A stretch of DNA of 64,000 nucleotides, taken from Leucobacter aridicollis. GTDB lineage: Bacteria > Actinomycetota > Actinomycetes > Actinomycetales > Microbacteriaceae. Of the stretch, positions 6,704-33,023 are shown piece by piece. The notes under the pieces are model-generated. The model did not search any database and was not told where the DNA came from. It worked only from the letters and a program-made list of their open reading frames with translations. Each line of letters begins with the position of its first letter. The first letter of the stretch is position 1. The translations under genes and the position numbers were made by a program. The stretch covers positions 2,542,001 through 2,606,000 of the forward strand of contig NZ_JACCBD010000001.1 in NCBI RefSeq assembly GCF_013409595.1, given 5' to 3'.

Positions 6704-6742
6704 CCGGCTCACGCCGGGCGTGCCCGGCACCGTGTTGCAGCG

Positions 6743-6787
6743 CGAGAGGGGCGGTGGGGATCGCTTGATCCCCCACCGCCCCTCTCG
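6743..6787. terminator. Bidirectional hairpin terminator between convergent genes
   Basis: A roughly 20-bp stem with one bulged C and a 4-base loop (GCTT) lies between the permease (plus) and the metallophosphoesterase (minus). There is no clear T tract on either side, but the stem is very stable and is placed exactly between convergent stops. Confidence 0.8.
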
Positions 6788-6798
6788 TGTGCGCGGCC

Positions 6799-9700
6799 CT
6801 ACTGGCGGCGCAGGCGGGCTCGCAGCGCGAGCACGATGCCGGCCGCGACCGTGAGCGCCGAGGCAAGGCCGGTCAGCGCCCAGACCGTCGCGGATGCACC
6901 GCCGGTCGCGGCGATGTCCGCGCGGGGGCCTGCACCCGTGCTGCCTGAGCTATCGTCACCTGAGCCGGTTCCGGAGCCCGGGCCGCCATGGCCATTGCCG
7001 CCATCACCCGGGCCGTCGTCGCCGGGGCCGCCATCTCCGGGACCGCCGTCGCCCGGGCCACCGTCAACGACCTTCGCGAACTCAATGTCGACGCTCACGC
7101 GCCCCTGCACGTCTCGCAGCACGAGCTCCGTGCCCTCGACCGCGAAGCCCTCGGCCCCCTCGACAGCGACAACCGGGTCGACCGCGGTGTACCCGGCGGC
7201 GGGCTCGAGCGCGAGCCGCAGCTCGCCACCGAGATCCGCGATTCCCTCGGCCGGGGTCACTGCGCCGTTCGTCGCGCGGGCGGCATAGGTGAACCGCACC
7301 GGCTGATCTTCAACCGCGGTGACCGCCGCGCGCAGTGAATCGTAGCTCGCGCGCAGGTCAGCTTCGGTCGGCGCCGCCGCTCCGAGCGCCGCGCGCGCCT
7401 GTTTGACGGCTGCGGTGAGCGCTTCCGTGAGCGCCTCGTCGAACACGCGGCCGTTTGCGGCCGCGCTCTCGTTGGCGGTGAGCAACTCAGCCGAGTAGTC
7501 GACGGCCCGTGTGAGCGCATCGGTCTCAGCCCCGGTGTCGTCGGCGCCGTGCAGCGCCGCGATCTCGTCAGGGGTGAGCGCCGAGTCCCACATCTTCAGG
7601 TCGTCCATGTCGAGGCCGACGCCGTAGCTCTTGCCCGCGTCCACGCCAATGAGCATGTTCAGGCCGCTCGTGAGGCTCCCGATCGACTCGATGCTCGCCT
7701 CTTTCACGAGCTGGCCGTCCATGTAGGTGCTCGCCGTGTTGCGCTCGCGGTCGACGGTAAACGCCATGTGGTGCCACGAGTTCTTGTAGTTCGTGACGTC
7801 ACCCGTCGCGTAGACGCCGTTCTTGTCATCGCCGAGGGTGAACTCGAGCTTGCCGGTGTCTCCGCCCTGTGGCGCCACGTTGAGGCCCGAGCGGTAGAAG
7901 TTGCTCCAGTTCTTGTTGCTGATGATGGCGCCGTAGCCGCCGACGCTCGTGACCTTCGTCCAGAAGCTCATCGTGAGGTCGCTGTCGGTGCCGAGGTCGA
8001 ACTCGGGCCTTGAACCAAGGTCGACGTAGCTGCCAGCCCCGGCCCCGATGCGCACCGCCTGCCCCGCGGCGCCGTTTCGGTCGGCAGGAACGTAGCTCAC
8101 TGAACCGACCGGTGCCGCCTTCGGTGCCACCCCTGCGGCAGTGCCCGCATCGCTCAGGTCGCCCTCGAACGCGAGGTTCAAGAACTCGCCGCCGGGTGCC
8201 TCCGCCCCGGTTGCAGGGAAGTCGGGGAACACGAGCGTACCCGCCGTGCGGAACGTGCCTGTGAGCGCCTCGGACTTGTTCTGGAAGTCGTCGAACGCGA
8301 ACACGTTCACCGTGTACGTCTTCGCAGCGTCGAGCCCGCCGATGTCGAAGCCCATCGTGTTCGGGCTCATGTAGAAGCGTGAGTAGGCTTTGAAGCTGCC
8401 GGTGAATGCTTTCGACTTCTTCGCGCCGAAGTCGGGCACCTGGTTCGCAGTGAACGCGACGGGGTTGCCCGCCTGGTCGGTGATCTGCACCTCGTAGTAG
8501 TTGACGAGCTCGTCGTCCTTCGCCTGCTCGAACCCGATCGTCGCTGACGTCTCGGTCACTTCGCGCGCGGTGACGGCCGCGCTGTCCCACCACGGCGCAA
8601 TCTTGCTGCGCTTGTCGCTCGTGTAGGTGAAGCCGGCTTTGCCCTTCGTAGTGTCGACAACCCACGGCATGCCGAGCCAGCGCTTGTGGGTGACGTCGAA
8701 GCGGCGAATTACGGTGCTGCCGTCTTCGAGCACCGTCACGAAGTTGGCGCTCTTCTGCGGCACACCCTTCGCCGCGTCTCCCTGGTTGCCGTCGAAGTAG
8801 CCGCCGCCGATGAAGTCCCCCGGCACATCCTGGTAGATGTAGTTCATCGAGGCGTTCTCGTAGACCGTGAAGTCTTTCTGGTAGATGCTCGTCTCGGGGT
8901 TCGACGAGAAGTGGGTGTGGGCCGAGCCGAGCACGGCCTGCGGGTAGTCGGCGAGGATGCGCTGCAGCTCGGGGCCCGCCATGTCGTAGTCGCCGTGGAA
9001 CGGGCCGCCGAGCGAGGTGCCCGCGTAGCCGCTGTGGATCGACACGAAGATCGGCTTCTTCGGGTCGTAGTCGGGCTTCGCCGCGATGCCCGCGAGCGTC
9101 TGCTTGAGGTACTCCTGGTAGCCGGTGCGCTGGCCGGTGTACCCAAACGTGTGCTTACCGTTGTAGTCAAGCCCGATGAAGTCGATGTCCTCAACCTTCG
9201 TGTGGAAGTTGCTGACGTAGTCGCTCTCAGCCCGCGGGTAGAACCACTCCGGGGCGCTGTCGCCGGCGCGGTCGGCGCGCGCCTCGTCAAACGTCTTCCC
9301 CATGAGGTCGGCAATGTCGTGGTTGCCCTGAGTGAGCAGCACGTTGGCGTCGGGGAAGCTCTCGCGCATCACCCGCTCGACGGCACGGTACCAGCCGGCG
9401 ACCTTCTCTGAGTCGCCGCGCAGGTGCGCGGAGTACTCGGGGTCGTTTGCGCCCACGACGTCACCGTTGTCGACGACGGCTTTGGGGGTGAAGCCCTTCG
9501 CCGTCGCCCAGTCGGTGATGCTCTTGAAGTGGGGCTGGATGCCCTCGTACGCGACCTGCTCCGAGGTTTTTTCAGCGGTGGCGGTGCCGCCGAGCTCGGT
9601 GTCAGACATCGTGATGAACTCGAGCGTCGCCGCCGCCCCGTTGTAGGCGTCGTTCGCAGCGTCGATTCGGGCCTGAGTCATCGCCTCGGCTGGCGCTCCC

Positions 9701-26380: not shown

Positions 26381-27028
26381 CTAGCCCGCCTGCAGGTACG
26401 TCAGGATCGCCCGCACCCGTCGGTTCTCGTCGCTCGGCTGAAGCCCCAGGCGCGTGAAGATGTTGCCGATGTGCTTCCGCACGGCCGCATCGCTGACGTA
26501 GAGCTGCGCCGCGATCCCGGCGTTCGACTCGCCCTTCGCCATGAGCTCGAGCACCTCACGCTCGCGCGGCGTCAGGTCCGCGAGCGGCCCCGGCTGGTCC
26601 TGCCGAAGCAGGTGCCGCGTCACCTCCGGGTCGATGATGGTGCCGCCGGCGGCGACGGTGACGAGCGCCTGGTCGAAGTCGGCGACCCTGTTGACGCGTT
26701 CCTTGAGCAGGTACCCGACCCCGCCTGACGGAAGCGTCAGGAGGTCCCGCGCGTACCTGTCGGCGACGTACTGCGACAGCGCGAGCACCGGCTGCTCGGG
26801 GGCGAGCTCGCGGATCTCGAGCGCCGCCCGCAGGCCGTCGTCAGTGCGTGTCGGCGGCATTCGCACGTCGGTGACGACCAGGTCTGGCGCGGTCTCGAGC
26901 GCCCGGTAGACGGCCACGAGCTCGGTGGCATCGCCTGCCGTCGCCACGACCTCGTGGCCAAGGCGCTCGAGCAGTGCCTGTAGCGCTTCCCGGAGCAGGG
27001 CGGCATCGTCAGCGAGCAGGATGCGCAT
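26381..27028 (-). CDS. NarL/FixJ-type response regulator (215 aa)
   Basis: The receiver domain (about residues 1-125) has the acidic pair Asp7-Asp8, phosphoacceptor Asp54 in VVTDVRMPP, and Lys in YLLKERV. The LuxR helix-turn-helix (about 148-210) reads LTPREREVLELMAKGESNAGIA. The start ATG 27028 lies inside the 3' end of the kinase gene (20-base overlap), so the pair is co-translated. It should act as the DNA-binding output of the adjacent kinase. Targets are unknown; the adjacent surface-protein module is a candidate only by position. Confidence 0.93.
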   Translation of the reverse strand: MRILLADDAALLREALQALLERLGHEVVATAGDATELVAVYRALETAPDLVVTDVRMPPTRTDDGLRAALEIRELAPEQPVLALSQYVADRYARDLLTLPSGGVGYLLKERVNRVADFDQALVTVAAGGTIIDPEVTRHLLRQDQPGPLADLTPREREVLELMAKGESNAGIAAQLYVSDAAVRKHIGNIFTRLGLQPSDENRRVRAILTYLQAG

Positions 27029-28334
27029 CGGCTACCACACTCCGTTCCGGGCCCGAAGCGATGAAGGCACGCCTGTCGCTCTCCGACGGCTGGGGCGCCG
27101 CGTCCGCCAGCGGGAAGGACAGCGTCAGTCGCGTCGGACCCCCAACCGGGCTGTCGATCGCGAGCTCGCCGTCGAGCGCATCCGCACGCTCGCGCAGGCC
27201 GCGAAGCCCGGTTCCACGATCGACGTCGACACCGCCGTGGCCGGTGTCGCTCGCGATCACGTAGGCGCGCTCGTCGTCCGCGGCGAGCGCGACCCGCACC
27301 ACCGAGGCGGAGGTGTGCTTTGCAGCGTTCGTGAGCGCCTCCGCGACGAAGAAGTAGGCCGCGGCTTCACGCGCCGGGCTCAGCCGGGGGAACCCGCGAT
27401 CCTCAATTCGGAGCGGCATCGCACTCCGTGACGCGAGCTCGGTGAGCGCCGCGGCCACCCCGTGGTCCGAGAGCACTGCCGGGTGGATGCCGCGCACCGT
27501 GCTCCGCAACGAGTCGAGTGCGCGTTCGGTCTGCTGTTGGGCGGCTTCGAGCGCCGCCATGCGCGCCGCGTCGTCGCCGTGCTGCAGCTCGAGTTCGAGG
27601 ATGCCGAGCCGCGCGGCGATCGCGACAAGCTCCTGCTGCACCCCGTCGTGCAGGTCGCGTTCGATGCGACGCCGCTCGGCTTCGTTCGCGGCAACGAGCG
27701 TCGCTCGCGACCGGGTCAGGCGGGCAACCCGCTCGTCGATCTCTGCGATCCGCGGCGCGAGCAGCCACCGCAGGCAGCCGCCGTGCAGGGCGGCGAGCAG
27801 ACCGTTCACGTAGCCGAACAGCAGCAGCGCGAACGCGATGACCGGGATCGGCCACCACCAGGTCTCCGGCCCGAGATCAATCACGATGTCGCCGAAGAGG
27901 TTCGCCGAGAGCGCGCCGTTCAGCGCCATGCTCGACAGCGCCACTCCGACCGCGACAACGAGCCCCTCGGCCCCGACGACGGCCAGCGAGACCGCGCCGA
28001 ACACGATGCCGAGCAGCAGAGAGAGCATCTCGCGCCAGGTCGCGGGCTCGGTGAGGCGCACGCCGAGCCAGTTCTGGCGCTCCCCGCGCGGCACCGGCAC
28101 GTGGCCGCTCGGCGGGCGCGGCAGCCCGAGCAGCACGAGCCGCTGCCGGTCGAGCCGCGATAGCGCGATCCCCCAGAACGGCAGCAGCAGGATCGTCGGG
28201 ACCAGGACGGAGATCAGGATCGGCGCGAGCAGCGCACTCGTCACGACGAACGCGAGCGCACGCCACGGCCAGCCGGAGGCCAGAAACTGCCACGGCGGCA
28301 GCATGAGCGCCTGCCACACCGTCTGAGCCTTCAT
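27009..28334 (-). CDS. NarL-type sensor histidine kinase, HisKA_3 class (441 aa)
   Basis: Two N-terminal membrane helices (about residues 25-60) and three further ones (about 103-190) form the sensor region with no recognisable ligand domain. The dimerisation/phosphoacceptor motif is RRRIERDLHDGVQQ with His229. The HATPase_c domain has the N box AEALTNAAKHT and the G box GTGLRGLRERA. It phosphorylates the response regulator encoded just downstream. The start ATG 28334 has TAGCCT exactly 6 bases upstream (28341-28346) and an AGGAG that would be inside the leader, so it may be leaderless. A hairpin separates it from the large LuxR gene. Confidence 0.92.
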   Translation of the reverse strand: MKAQTVWQALMLPPWQFLASGWPWRALAFVVTSALLAPILISVLVPTILLLPFWGIALSRLDRQRLVLLGLPRPPSGHVPVPRGERQNWLGVRLTEPATWREMLSLLLGIVFGAVSLAVVGAEGLVVAVGVALSSMALNGALSANLFGDIVIDLGPETWWWPIPVIAFALLLFGYVNGLLAALHGGCLRWLLAPRIAEIDERVARLTRSRATLVAANEAERRRIERDLHDGVQQELVAIAARLGILELELQHGDDAARMAALEAAQQQTERALDSLRSTVRGIHPAVLSDHGVAAALTELASRSAMPLRIEDRGFPRLSPAREAAAYFFVAEALTNAAKHTSASVVRVALAADDERAYVIASDTGHGGVDVDRGTGLRGLRERADALDGELAIDSPVGGPTRLTLSFPLADAAPQPSESDRRAFIASGPERSVVADAHPAR

Positions 28335-28407: not shown

Positions 28408-31056
28408 CTACCTGTGCGTGGCGTACTCGCCGATCTCCTCGCGTTCGAGCGCGCCCGACTTCCGGCGAATGTTTCGCAGGTGCGTTTCGACGGTTCGCAC
28501 CGACAGGCTGAGTGCGGCGGCGATGCCCGGGTTGTTCATCCCCTCGGCGACGAGGTCGATGATCTCGCGCTCGCGCTGGGTGAAGCCGAGGCTCGACTCG
28601 ACCTGCGTGAGCGCGATCTCGGTCGCCGGGTCCTCCGAGGTCATCAGCGCGGCGACCTCCTCGCGCACCTCGGCTGACCGATCCTCCTCGCCCGCCTCGC
28701 GGTAGAGCCGCGCTGCCGCGAGGAAGTACTTGAGCGCCGAGTCGTTCGCGTGCTCGCGGCGCAGCCACCGCGCCGCCTCGACGAGCCCGGCCGCGTCGCG
28801 CGTGTGGTGCGCGATGCGCGCGTCGAGGTACGCCAGGAAGACGGTGCCGCCGAGGTACTCGAGTCGAGCACGCTCCGCGATGGCCTCGTCGACGTTGAAG
28901 TCGAGCAGCATCGCGAGCATCGTTGAGCCCGCGGCGGAGAACTCGTAGCCGCGCTCGCGCAGCGCGCCTGCGAGCGCCCGGTAGCTCGCGCTCGTCTCCT
29001 CGGGGGTGCCGTCGATCTCGGTGACGAGCGCCGCGGGGAACCCGATCGCGCCCATCGGGACTGCCTCGCTCCGGCCGGCGTACGAGGCGCCGCGCTCGAT
29101 GAGCGTGCCGACCGAGCTGATGCGTCCGCTCCTGCGTGCGGCGATCGCGAGCGCGTTCATGAGCGCGCGGTCGGGTCCGAAGAGGAGGTTCGCGGCCTGG
29201 AACTGGCCGCTCGCGGCGATGCTGCCCGCTGCGGTCGCGTCGGCGTAGCGGCTCATGGTGAGCAGCGCCATGACCGCGACGTACGCCTGCGCGACGATGG
29301 CCGAACGGTCGAAGCGTTCGCGGGCGACGGTCAGCTGCGACGAGGCCCATTCGAGGGCCTCCTGCGGCCGCCCGGCGGTCACGAGGGCGAGTCCGCGCAG
29401 CGGGGCGGCGAACCGAGGCACCCAGCCGGTGTTGGGGAGCTTCGCGAACTGCTCGAGCGCGGTCGCCGGGCGCCCGCCGAGGGCGTGCATGGCGATCAGG
29501 ATCAGCCCGCCAACGTCGCCCTCAACGCCCGGCAGCCCCGCGATCTCCTCGATGCGTTCGAGCATGGGCGCGGTGATCTCGGTCTGCTCCGCGTGGAAGC
29601 CGATCGTCAGTGCCTCGATGGCCGCCGGGTAGCCGAGGTCGCCGGTTCCGGCGAGGGTCGCCTCGACGGCCTCGCGCGGCTGCTGCTGCGTGACGAGCCA
29701 GCGCGCGTGGAGGTACCTGAAGTAGAGCGCCTCGAGTGGCGCGGCGGCATCGAGCTCGGTCTCTGCGACGATCGCCTCGATCTGGCCGGCCGGCGCGTCG
29801 CCCGTGAGGCGAAGCTCGAGGGCGGCGATGCCGTTGCCCGGGCTGGGGCTCTCCGACCAGTTGCTCCAGGTGCGGCCGAGGTCCGCGTCGAACGCGTCGC
29901 GGAACGCCCGTGCGAGCAGCGGGATGTCGGGCTGCGGGATGACGTCGGCGAACTGCCGCGGGACCTGCGGCTGCTCGGCGATCCCGATCCCGAACTCCGG
30001 TCCGAGCACCTCCTCGATCTGCTGTCGCAGGCGGATGCCACGCACCGAGGGCGCGCGGTGCCGGAAGTAGTCGCTGATGCCGGGCGGGTTCACGGTGATC
30101 CGCGGGCCGGAGCCGGCGCTGAAGAGACGGACAAGCCCGCGCCCCTCGAGGCGTTCGAGTTCTTCCTGCCCCACGAGCGTTGTCGCCTGGTCGACCGCGA
30201 GCGGGCCCGTCGCGACGAGCATCTCGAGCGCCTCGCGGATCTCCTCCGGGTACCGGTAGAGCAGCGACTCGAATGCGCCCTCAAGTTCCTCAGACCACAG
30301 GTCGGCGCCGTCGTGCCACACGCTGCCCTGCTTGCGAATCTTCGCACGCCGCTTCGCGCTGTCGGCGAAGGCGATGGCGTAGCCGGGCAGCCCGCCCGAC
30401 TTCATGTGGACCCTGCCGCTCAGCGAGGGCGCGACCTGGTCGCCGAGCCGCTCCTCGAGCAGATCGTGGATCGCGTCGAGCCGCAGCTCGTCGAGCGTGA
30501 GCTTCACGACTGGCTGCGCCATCCTGATGAGCAGGCGCTCGTCAGGATCAATGTCGCCGCGCGACTCTGCCGTCGCCACGATGGGCACGCCGGTTGCCTT
30601 GTGGATCTGCTCGAGCAGCACCCATGACGCCTCGTCGAGCAGGTCGATGTCGTCGACGAGCACCACCGCCGGCCCCTCCGAGAGCAGCTCGGTGACGGCG
30701 CGCGGGAGTTCGGCGGAGAGGTCGGCGTCCGGGCGGCGGTTCGCCGGCAGGTTGGGCAGCGCGACCTTGAAAGCTTCGAGCGGTCTCGCATGCTCGATGC
30801 CGCGCAGTTGCACGAGCGCGAGCCCGATCCCGCGCAGGGCCTCGCCGACGCGCCTGAGCAGTTCGGTCCTCCCCGACCAGTGCTGCCCGATCACGGACAC
30901 CGAGGTGCCGTCGATCACGTAGCGCACGATCCGCTGGACTTCCGTGTTGCGAGCGTACACAGGCTCCCCCTCCTGCTGCCAGGGAGGCAGCCCCCGCTGC
31001 AGTAGCGACATGGGCCGCCCGTCCCGTTCATTCAGTACAGGCAGGATACCGCGCAT
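28408..31056 (-). CDS. Large ATPase-LuxR transcriptional regulator, LAL-like (882 aa)
   Basis: An N-terminal AAA/STAND ATPase (about residues 35-300) has a P-loop with the Lys replaced by Arg (GQHWSGRTELL) and Walker B AVVLVDDIDLLDE. A long helical, TPR-like middle region (about 330-800) leads to a LuxR helix-turn-helix at the C-terminus (LGFTQREREIIDLVAEGMNNPGIA). The architecture matches LAL/MalT-type regulators, which integrate a signal through the helical part. The start ATG 31056 overlaps the LPxTG gene stop (ATGA), so it is coupled to the surface module upstream and probably regulates it. Whether ATP is bound with Arg in the P-loop is uncertain. Confidence 0.88.
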   Translation of the reverse strand: MRGILPVLNERDGRPMSLLQRGLPPWQQEGEPVYARNTEVQRIVRYVIDGTSVSVIGQHWSGRTELLRRVGEALRGIGLALVQLRGIEHARPLEAFKVALPNLPANRRPDADLSAELPRAVTELLSEGPAVVLVDDIDLLDEASWVLLEQIHKATGVPIVATAESRGDIDPDERLLIRMAQPVVKLTLDELRLDAIHDLLEERLGDQVAPSLSGRVHMKSGGLPGYAIAFADSAKRRAKIRKQGSVWHDGADLWSEELEGAFESLLYRYPEEIREALEMLVATGPLAVDQATTLVGQEELERLEGRGLVRLFSAGSGPRITVNPPGISDYFRHRAPSVRGIRLRQQIEEVLGPEFGIGIAEQPQVPRQFADVIPQPDIPLLARAFRDAFDADLGRTWSNWSESPSPGNGIAALELRLTGDAPAGQIEAIVAETELDAAAPLEALYFRYLHARWLVTQQQPREAVEATLAGTGDLGYPAAIEALTIGFHAEQTEITAPMLERIEEIAGLPGVEGDVGGLILIAMHALGGRPATALEQFAKLPNTGWVPRFAAPLRGLALVTAGRPQEALEWASSQLTVARERFDRSAIVAQAYVAVMALLTMSRYADATAAGSIAASGQFQAANLLFGPDRALMNALAIAARRSGRISSVGTLIERGASYAGRSEAVPMGAIGFPAALVTEIDGTPEETSASYRALAGALRERGYEFSAAGSTMLAMLLDFNVDEAIAERARLEYLGGTVFLAYLDARIAHHTRDAAGLVEAARWLRREHANDSALKYFLAAARLYREAGEEDRSAEVREEVAALMTSEDPATEIALTQVESSLGFTQREREIIDLVAEGMNNPGIAAALSLSVRTVETHLRNIRRKSGALEREEIGEYATHR

Positions 31057-31682
31057 CAGTTCTCCTTCGCAGGGGTGGGGCGCCGGGGGTGGCGCAGGAG
31101 CGAGGCCGCTCCCGCAGTGACGAGGCCGGCCGCGCCGAGCAGGAGGGCGGCGCTCGGCCCGCCGCCCGTGCCTGGCAGGCCGCCGCCGGTCGACGGGCTG
31201 CGCTCGATACCGGTGAACGCGAGGTCGACGACCGAGACCGCGCTGCCTGCGGCGCGGGCTTCCGGGTAACGCACCTGCACGCAGAGGTCGATCGTGTCGC
31301 CGGAGCCGATCGTGCCCTGTGAGAGCGGCATTGCCGCGGCCAGCGTGACTTCGTCGGCCCCGGCCATCGCGGCGGCGGAGCACTCAGTCGTGCGCTCCGA
31401 CGAGAGCACGAGCGCGCTCGCACCGGCGCCGTCACCGGACTCGCCGGTCAGGATCGGGGTGAGCGCGAGTTCGAGATCCTCAGCCGCGTCGTTGCGCACC
31501 GTGGCGAGCGCGCGGGCCTGCTCGCCGGGGTGGAGCGTCACGTTGAACAGCTGCCGCGCGGGGGTCACCGTGAGTCCTCCCGCCCGGGGTGCGGCGAGCG
31601 CGGGGGTGCCGATCGCGAGGCCGCACGCGGCCACCGCGGCGCCCCCGGCAAGGAGCGCCGCGAGCATCCGCTGGCGTGTCAT
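31056..31682 (-). CDS. LPxTG-anchored surface protein (208 aa)
   Basis: The signal peptide (hydrophobic core about residues 7-28, ALAAP cleavage) precedes one beta-rich domain (about 35-160). Its opening, LTVTPARQLFNVTLHPGEQARA, resembles the immunoglobulin-like start of DUF916/WxL-interacting surface proteins, with two cysteines (101, 134). The sorting signal is LPGTG (169-173), then a hydrophobic helix and a basic tail (RHPRRP). It should be linked to the wall by a sortase, none of which is encoded in the window. It is coupled by ATGA overlaps to the SipW-type peptidase before it and the regulator after it. Role within the surface module unknown. Confidence 0.87.
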   Translation of the reverse strand: MTRQRMLAALLAGGAAVAACGLAIGTPALAAPRAGGLTVTPARQLFNVTLHPGEQARALATVRNDAAEDLELALTPILTGESGDGAGASALVLSSERTTECSAAAMAGADEVTLAAAMPLSQGTIGSGDTIDLCVQVRYPEARAAGSAVSVVDLAFTGIERSPSTGGGLPGTGGGPSAALLLGAAGLVTAGAASLLRHPRRPTPAKEN

Positions 31683-32290
31683 CGCGCGTGCCCTGCCGGG
31701 GTGAGGTCCGCGCTGTGTCGCGGCGCTGACGCGGTACCGCGCACCGCAGCCTCCGCGTTCGGGGCTGGGGCTGGGACCGGGGCCGCTACCGCGACCGCGG
31801 CGGCGGGATCCGCCTGGCGTGCCCGGCGCCGGCTCGGCGCGAACAGCGCGATAAGGAAGACCGCGCCGACAATGAGCCGGACCGCCCAGAGTTCCGAGAC
31901 CCGGAAGAGGGTAGCCCAGGTTCCCTGCAGCGCGAACCGCGGCGTGCCGAGCACCTGTTCCTGCGTCACCGGCAGCGGGTCGCTGATGTCGTTACCGTCA
32001 CCCTTCAGGATCGCCCCGTCCTCGGTGACAGTCTCCACCCGGTGCACGTACTGGTCCGACGTGTCGCCCGCAGCGAACGAGACGACGACCGGGGTCCCTG
32101 GGGTGGCAAGCTCGTCGCCGGCGGGGGCCTGCACGACGAGAACGTCACCCACCTCGTAGGTGGGGCGCATCGAGACTCCGGTGACGGTCATGTAGTAGTC
32201 GCCGCTGGCGGCCGCCCAGAGAAACGGGACCGCAAGTGCCACAAGCGCGATGCTCGAGAGCGTTCGCAGGGTCAGAATGATGCTTCGCAT
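31679..32290 (-). CDS. sipW: SipW-type signal peptidase I (203 aa)
   Basis: The N-terminal membrane helix (about residues 10-28) is followed by the catalytic Ser40-Met41 in VTGVSMRPTYEVGD. Where bacterial type I peptidases have a Lys, this has His83 (YVHRVETV), the Ser/His dyad of the SipW/ER-type class. The KGDGND box (96-101) and a second membrane helix (about 135-150) follow, then an Ala/Pro tail. Enzymes of this class mature TasA/camelysin-type proteins; the gene just upstream encodes such a protein, so that is the likely substrate. The start ATG 32290 has GGAGG five bases upstream. It is coupled to the LPxTG gene (ATGA). Confidence 0.92.
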   Translation of the reverse strand: MRSIILTLRTLSSIALVALAVPFLWAAASGDYYMTVTGVSMRPTYEVGDVLVVQAPAGDELATPGTPVVVSFAAGDTSDQYVHRVETVTEDGAILKGDGNDISDPLPVTQEQVLGTPRFALQGTWATLFRVSELWAVRLIVGAVFLIALFAPSRRRARQADPAAAVAVAAPVPAPAPNAEAAVRGTASAPRHSADLTPAGHAR

Positions 32291-32381
32291 GTCGTCCTCC
32301 GGGAGAGTGGTGAGCGTGTGTGTCGTGGTCAGTGCGTTTCGTCTGGTGCGGGTCGTCGTGAGCGCGCAGGTGGGGGTACGC

Positions 32382-32423
32382 CGCGGCGCCGAGCAGAATC
32401 GGGGGGGGCTGCTCGGCGCCGCG
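32382..32423 (-). promoter_or_regulatory. Hairpin between the TasA-like gene and sipW
   Basis: A perfect 15-bp stem (32382-32396 with 32409-32423) has a 12-base loop containing eight consecutive G (plus strand). There is no T tract. It may allow the surface-protein gene to be expressed above the peptidase gene by partial termination or by stabilising its mRNA. Confidence 0.7.
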
Positions 32424-32465
32424 CTGCATTATCTCGGCACGCGCTAGGTGCGTGCCAGGTACGTA

Positions 32466-33023
32466 CTAGTTGCTCTTGGCGATGCTGTTGAAGAGGTAGT
32501 CCGCCGTCACCTTCGAGTCGTCGAGGCCAGCCGAGTGGAAGGCCGCCGCGTCGTCGACGAACACGTCGACGCGCACCTTGGCGCTCTCACCGGGTGCGAG
32601 CTCGAACGAGTCTGCGCCATCGAGTCGCATGTCCGCGAGCTTGCCGCTGCTGACGAGCGGGCCGCCTTCGACGGCAACGCGGGTGTCGAGCGCCCCGGCG
32701 AGCTGGGCGCCGTTCACGCCGCCCGGCTGCACCTGCGAGGCGAGGGTCACCGTGAGGGTTGCGTTGGTCGAGGTGTTCGTTGCCGTGTAGTACCCGGTGA
32801 CCGCTTCGCCGTCCATCTCGCCCGTGAAGGTGTTCGACATCGGGGCGCCAGTGACCGTGAGCTCGCCGTCGGCGGTGGTGTCCGAAATCTTGGTGTCGAA
32901 CACGTTGTCGAAGATGGTGCTGTTCGCGGTGACGAGCGCGCCACCGACGGTGACGCCGGCAATCAGCAGGAGCGAACCGCCAGCGATCGCGAGCTTCTTC
33001 TTGGTGGATGTCTGCGTAGCCAT
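32466..33023 (-). CDS. TasA/camelysin-like exported protein with alternate signal peptide (185 aa)
   Basis: The N-terminus has a KKK motif and a hydrophobic stretch (about residues 8-32) without the usual Ala-x-Ala site, as in SipW-dependent (alternate-type) signal peptides. The mature part is a single beta-rich domain of about 150 residues (threonine- and asparagine-rich strand TATNTSTNATLTVTLAS, later ELAPGESAKVRVDVFV), like the TasA/camelysin fold that forms fibres in Bacillus. No sorting signal is present, so it may be secreted and polymerise. The start ATG 33023 has GAAAGG about 9 bases upstream. It is the first gene of the module with sipW, the LPxTG protein and the LuxR regulator. Confidence 0.85.
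   Translation of the reverse strand: MATQTSTKKKLAIAGGSLLLIAGVTVGGALVTANSTIFDNVFDTKISDTTADGELTVTGAPMSNTFTGEMDGEAVTGYYTATNTSTNATLTVTLASQVQPGGVNGAQLAGALDTRVAVEGGPLVSSGKLADMRLDGADSFELAPGESAKVRVDVFVDDAAAFHSAGLDDSKVTADYLFNSIAKSN

Follow-up and report, generated by a model that had tools for sequence, protein, structure and literature searches.

The fibers built from TasA-type subunits have been worked out mainly in Bacillus and in archaea, and it is less clear how such fibers are started, capped or armed. The donor strand of Bacillus TasA is described as residues 28-38, and TapA, which has a similar N-terminus, is held to start the fibers (PMC9674648, PMC10151520); TapA is reportedly not conserved even within Bacillus (PMC10151520). 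Here we analyze a stretch of 64,000 nucleotides from the actinobacterium Leucobacter aridicollis (contig NZ_JACCBD010000001.1, positions 2,542,001 to 2,606,000), hereafter the window. It contains a cassette of four genes, encoding a TasA-like protein of 185 amino acids (aa), a SipW-like signal peptidase, a 208-aa protein with an LxxTG-type tail, and an 882-aa ATPase-LuxR regulator. With modest confidence, we favor the view that this cassette makes a TasA-type fiber, and that an RCC1-propeller protein, encoded outside the window, is a member of it.

The tapA-sipW-tasA system of Bacillus subtilis, as presented in PMC9674648 and PMC10151520, resembles this cassette in that it includes a TasA-fold subunit, a dedicated endoplasmic reticulum (ER)-type peptidase, a scarcer beta-sandwich partner, and a helper with a subunit-like N-terminus. 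The two differ in gene order, in that the subunit gene comes first in Leucobacter whereas tasA is reported to be last in B. subtilis (PMC9674648, PMC10151520). SipW is described as cutting TapA in B. subtilis, whereas the Leucobacter partner has an LxxTG tail and, by eye, an AxA signal. In Leucobacter, moreover, the helper that shares the subunit N-terminus is an RCC1 propeller, and a regulator lies inside the cassette, instead of SinR. The sipW-tasA, capP and calY genes of Bacillus cereus likewise provide SipW and TasA-type subunits, together with a distinct assembly factor that the filaments require; CapP, however, does not belong to the RCC1 proteins, and the report describes the system as independent of sortase, whereas Leucobacter has one TasA-type gene and an LxxTG partner (PMC13082335). 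In Clostridium perfringens, sipW-bsaA combines SipW with a secreted filament-forming protein, and the abstract mentions neither an LxxTG nor an RCC1 partner (PMC7395162). The actinobacterial SipW substrates TIGR04089 and TIGR04088 are also alternate-signal proteins with SipW nearby, but the 185-aa protein fits neither model, and 20 such loci are without ATPase-LuxR and RCC1 genes. Lastly, the bundling pilus protein AbpA (7ueg), which Foldseek ranks second among the matches of the 185-aa model, is archaeal, with 16% identity in the aligned part.

All four genes lie on the minus strand, where an earlier note on this DNA had placed them: the 185-aa protein, our proposed fiber subunit (32466-33023); the SipW-like ER-type peptidase of 203 aa (31679-32290); the 208-aa beta-sandwich protein, our proposed wall-side partner (31056-31682); and the regulator (28408-31056). 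The same note described ATGA overlaps joining the last three genes. This holds for sipW and the LPxTG gene, which share four bases, but the LPxTG gene and the regulator gene meet at TGATG, with one base shared. In what follows, G000 denotes the source genome, G099 Leucobacter chinensis, and G199 Curtobacterium ammoniigenes. Strong orthologues of the 185-aa protein were found in 8 of the 54 Leucobacter genomes searched, a count that leaves out a match in G032 (E 0.0078), and the same eight genomes carry a strong sipW orthologue; eight further Leucobacter genomes have only weak sipW matches (E 2e-9 to 5e-5). A gene-neighborhood survey showed that the four genes co-occur, in one order and on one strand, in all eight Leucobacter carriers, i.e., in the window and seven other loci. 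L. komagatae is among the species with the cassette. The genes that flank the cassette in the window are found again in G003 and mostly in G017; otherwise only pieces recur, such as YdeI over 39 residues in G030 and a transporter about 6 kb off in G044. Thus, the four-gene block behaves as a unit. Following the cassette on the same strand are a histidine kinase and a response regulator (26381-28334), common only to G003 and partly to G017.

A fifth component emerges beyond the window. The cassettes of G028, G029 and G030 are adjoined by a gene whose product, of about 850 aa, has RCC1 repeats. The source genome has an RCC1 gene of this kind at G000:C1 2537417-2539828 (803 aa), which ends 2.2 kb before the left edge of the window; some 31 kb separate it from the regulator gene. 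Its product matches PF00415 (E 5e-50) in six RCC1 stretches, and its matches in the PDB are the UVR8, HERC and RCC1 propellers. Using as query the 350 N-terminal residues before the propeller, which excludes ordinary RCC1 genes, we found this N-terminal half in 8 of the 54 Leucobacter genomes, precisely those with a strong orthologue of the 185-aa protein. The RCC1 gene is adjacent to the cassette in four of these (G006, G028, G029 and G030), lies some 19 to 71 kb from it in G003, G000 and G017 (the latter with two copies), and is on another contig in G044. Among 398 genomes of the family, the RCC1 N-terminal half was detected in two (G000 and G099), both of which carry the 185-aa protein; the profile of the latter was detected in three (G000, G099 and G199), the RCC1 protein of the Curtobacterium genome being too divergent for the RCC1 search.

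Both in L. chinensis and in C. ammoniigenes the gene order is tasA-like, sipW, LxxTG, RCC1, and in Curtobacterium the last two genes overlap at their stop and start codons. The 18 kb read at each locus showed no ATPase-LuxR gene. Because the RCC1 gene follows the LxxTG gene without the regulator in both of these outside loci, it looks like a core part of the cassette, and the regulator looks like a Leucobacter addition. In a gyrB tree that included every one of the 10 carriers, plus 20 of the 46 Leucobacter genomes lacking the cassette (30 genomes in total), the carriers do not form one clade. The tree calls for six changes on DNA (bootstrap not settled) and four on protein, and at least two are forced by well-supported branches; G006, for example, has the cassette and its sister G007 is without it. 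Since the carriers are scattered, RCC1 gene and cassette have stayed matched across more than a single event of gain or loss. In L. chinensis, a second RCC1 protein, with its own LVTTG-type tail, directly follows the first (L079:13238-15490); from its sequence, this may be a propeller sitting directly on the wall. In G051, an RCC1-type open reading frame (ORF) is convergent to a different SipW gene (L042:4398-6596 and 6711-7337), and RCC1 and SipW may therefore meet more than once.

The 185-aa protein and the RCC1 protein also share their N-terminal end. Directly after the hydrophobic segment, the former reads GALVTANSTIFDNVF (residues 28-42; 32898-32942, minus strand) and the RCC1 protein of the source genome reads GAVTTDNSTVHGNRF. 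This segment, which we propose as cleavage region and donor strand, is the most conserved stretch of the 185-aa family. When the 3.57-Mb genome was scanned with a degenerate DNA pattern encoding N-[ST]-T-[IV]-x-x-N-x-F, each of the two genes gave one match and no other site matched, and the reversed pattern, as a control, gave none; because the pattern was written from the two genes, this result speaks of rarity only. In a test that is less circular, we slid all 16-mers of one protein along the other, in 11 comparisons. The best pair lies in register at the motif in seven (G000, G003, G006, G028, G030, G099 and G199). Of 200 shuffled RCC1 sequences, the number reaching the observed score was 0 in G099, 1 in G199, 4 in G003, 5 in G000, 18 in G028, and 26 in G030. 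A broader motif, again written from these proteins, has 38 matches among 4,652 ORFs in the window and loci L033-L129, several genes being counted in more than one locus. All 38 are in the 185-aa and RCC1 families, and the motif is absent from the ordinary SipW substrates in the same set.

The interpretation in the earlier note finds partial support. It had called the 185-aa protein TasA/camelysin-like, pending structure prediction and profile search. The predicted structure agrees: the best Foldseek fold matches are the TasA fiber (8aur) and the archaeal pilus (7ueg), and the model thus indicates a TasA beta-sandwich fold. The profiles do not. PF12389, the TasA/camelysin family, is not among the Pfam matches at E<=1, which consist only of S_layer_C (0.023) and Fn3-like (0.11), both under cut-off; NCBIfam gives no family at E<=1, and therefore neither TIGR04088 nor TIGR04089.

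The steps that we infer, from cleavage and strand donation to fibers, anchoring, a binding head and regulation, would be these. The 185-aa subunit would be exported and then cut, at or near the GAxxTxxST(I/V)xxN segment, by the neighboring ER-type peptidase. Its new N-terminus would serve as a donor strand and so complete the beta-sandwich of the following subunit, by analogy with Bacillus TasA. Because the RCC1 protein has the same segment, it too would be a substrate of this peptidase, and it could contribute the same strand; its propeller might start, cap or decorate the fiber, most likely as a binding head. The LxxTG protein would be the wall-side partner, in a role like that of TapA or CapP, perhaps attached there by a sortase of this genome. 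The hairpin described below would keep the subunit mRNA in excess, and in Leucobacter the ATPase-LuxR protein would control the cassette. A bolder reading, which we consider less likely than not, is a strand-complemented Gram-positive pilus, in which a modular RCC1 head is plugged into a TasA-type fiber by a subunit-like donor strand and a sortase-type partner fixes the base to the wall; peptidase, subunit, base and head would be gained and lost together, and the regulator exchanged between lineages. An actinobacterial cassette whose propeller protein bears the presumed donor strand of the subunit would make it possible to test directly whether other domains can, in general, be plugged into TasA-type fibers by strand donation.

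Several results weigh against a fiber with an RCC1 member. The model of the 185-aa protein is modest, with a predicted local distance difference test (pLDDT) score of 66 overall and under 50 in residues 1-53, which bear the motif. Its match to TasA is equaled, by Z, by that to the cannula protein CanA; none of the TasA, camelysin and SipW-substrate profiles matches it in Pfam or NCBIfam at E<=1, and neither does any PDB sequence. The best 16-mer pair lies elsewhere than the motif in 4 of the 11 comparisons (G044, G029, and each of the two copies in G017), and in G006 the score is reached by 165 of 200 shuffles; because shuffles reach the score this often, position weighs more than score in this test. 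The RCC1 gene is non-adjacent in four of the eight Leucobacter carriers, and the sortase motif is loose, with the proline in 4 of 13 sequences. Finally, the shared motif would be explained more simply by a common peptidase recognition site. This is the basis of the main rival, in which there is no fiber: the 185-aa protein would be a camelysin-like protein of the cell surface, either monomeric or in loose association, and the RCC1 protein a second client of the peptidase. The motif does lie at the expected cleavage region, where a recognition site alone would suffice; the predicted fold is also near to non-TasA proteins; and Bacillus CalY is reported as both adhesin and fiber former (PMC13082335). 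Yet the motif extends past the hydrophobic segment to an Asn and a Phe, and no ordinary SipW substrate in the scanned loci shows it, despite the SipW peptidase nearby. We regard the no-fiber explanation as rather improbable.

It is also conceivable that the functional unit is the four-gene block, and that the RCC1 protein acts independently at the surface, sharing with the block only its genomic neighborhood or niche. The four non-adjacent cases would fit this explanation, as would the wide occurrence of RCC1 repeats, of which the source genome has further copies. However, identical distribution over 8 of 54 genomes, with several gains or losses, is not what it would lead one to expect, and neither are the overlapping genes in Curtobacterium and the shared N-terminal motif; we consider it unlikely. 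Still further down the scale, and in our view very improbable, is that the 185-aa protein is a secreted enzyme, i.e., a camelysin metalloprotease exported and controlled by the cassette. The UniRef names of two relatives suggest this, but they are automatic labels, and Peptidase_M73 gives no match at E<=1 (a catalytic motif was not searched for).

The 15-bp hairpin of the earlier note is present between the subunit gene and sipW, as a perfect stem at 32382-32423 (minus strand). The segment 32370-32470 folds better than 200 of 200 dinucleotide shuffles (z -6.0). Nine of 10 related loci have a perfect stem of 9-17 bp in the same gap, with loops of at most 25 bases; in G028 none was found within that loop limit, and by eye the same arms enclose a longer loop. 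Mononucleotide shuffles reach the stem length in 0 of 200 cases in eight of the nine loci, and in 13 of 200 in G029. Beyond the nearest relatives the stem sequences differ, and none of the stems is followed by a T-run. That is, the hairpin is conserved in position, and it would be an element that ends or protects the subunit mRNA.

In the LxxTG protein, the C-terminus consists of LPGTG (residues 169-173; 31164-31178, minus strand), a hydrophobic stretch, and a basic tail; L-x-x-[TS]-G is found in 13 of 13 aligned sequences. The signal peptide appears by eye to be of the ordinary AxA type. The DUF916-like beta domain that had been suggested for this protein finds no support, as no Pfam or NCBIfam family matches it at E<=1, nor does the Pfam anchor family. 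The source genome has five sortase matches elsewhere.

The regulator matches GerE (PF00196) over the cut-off and AAA_16 under it. In all eight cassette regulators the Walker A lysine is replaced by arginine (GQHWSGR[TS]), and judging from the sequence, ATP may be bound but poorly hydrolyzed. A relative of the regulator in G051 has the Walker A arginine too, and Walker B is kept in the cassette regulators as well as in this relative. In G016, an ATPase-LuxR gene beside a SipW locus is split over two overlapping ORFs (L046:10789-13544).

The peptidase matches PF00717 over the cut-off and TIGR02228 below it, and does not reach the Bacillus SipW equivalog NF046067 (19.9 bits, cut-off 190). The Ser40/His83 dyad had been read correctly, and is aligned in 12 of 12 sequences. 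TIGR04089 exceeds its cut-off in 66 of 149 Microbacteriaceae. We selected 20 TIGR04089 loci from high-scoring matches, one per genus, and 20 control stretches elsewhere in the same genomes. A SipW gene lies within 8 kb in 19 of the 20 loci and in none of the 20 controls; the ATPase-LuxR gene and the cassette-type RCC1 gene are absent from both sets. SipW-type loci are thus common in Microbacteriaceae and of a known kind, and what is new here is the parts list and the shared N-terminal end. The source genome also has an ordinary TIGR04089/SipW locus at 2628040-2630049 (L129, G000:C1:2618000-2637000), about 53 kb from the cassette, adjoined by a gene for a 944-aa repeat protein.

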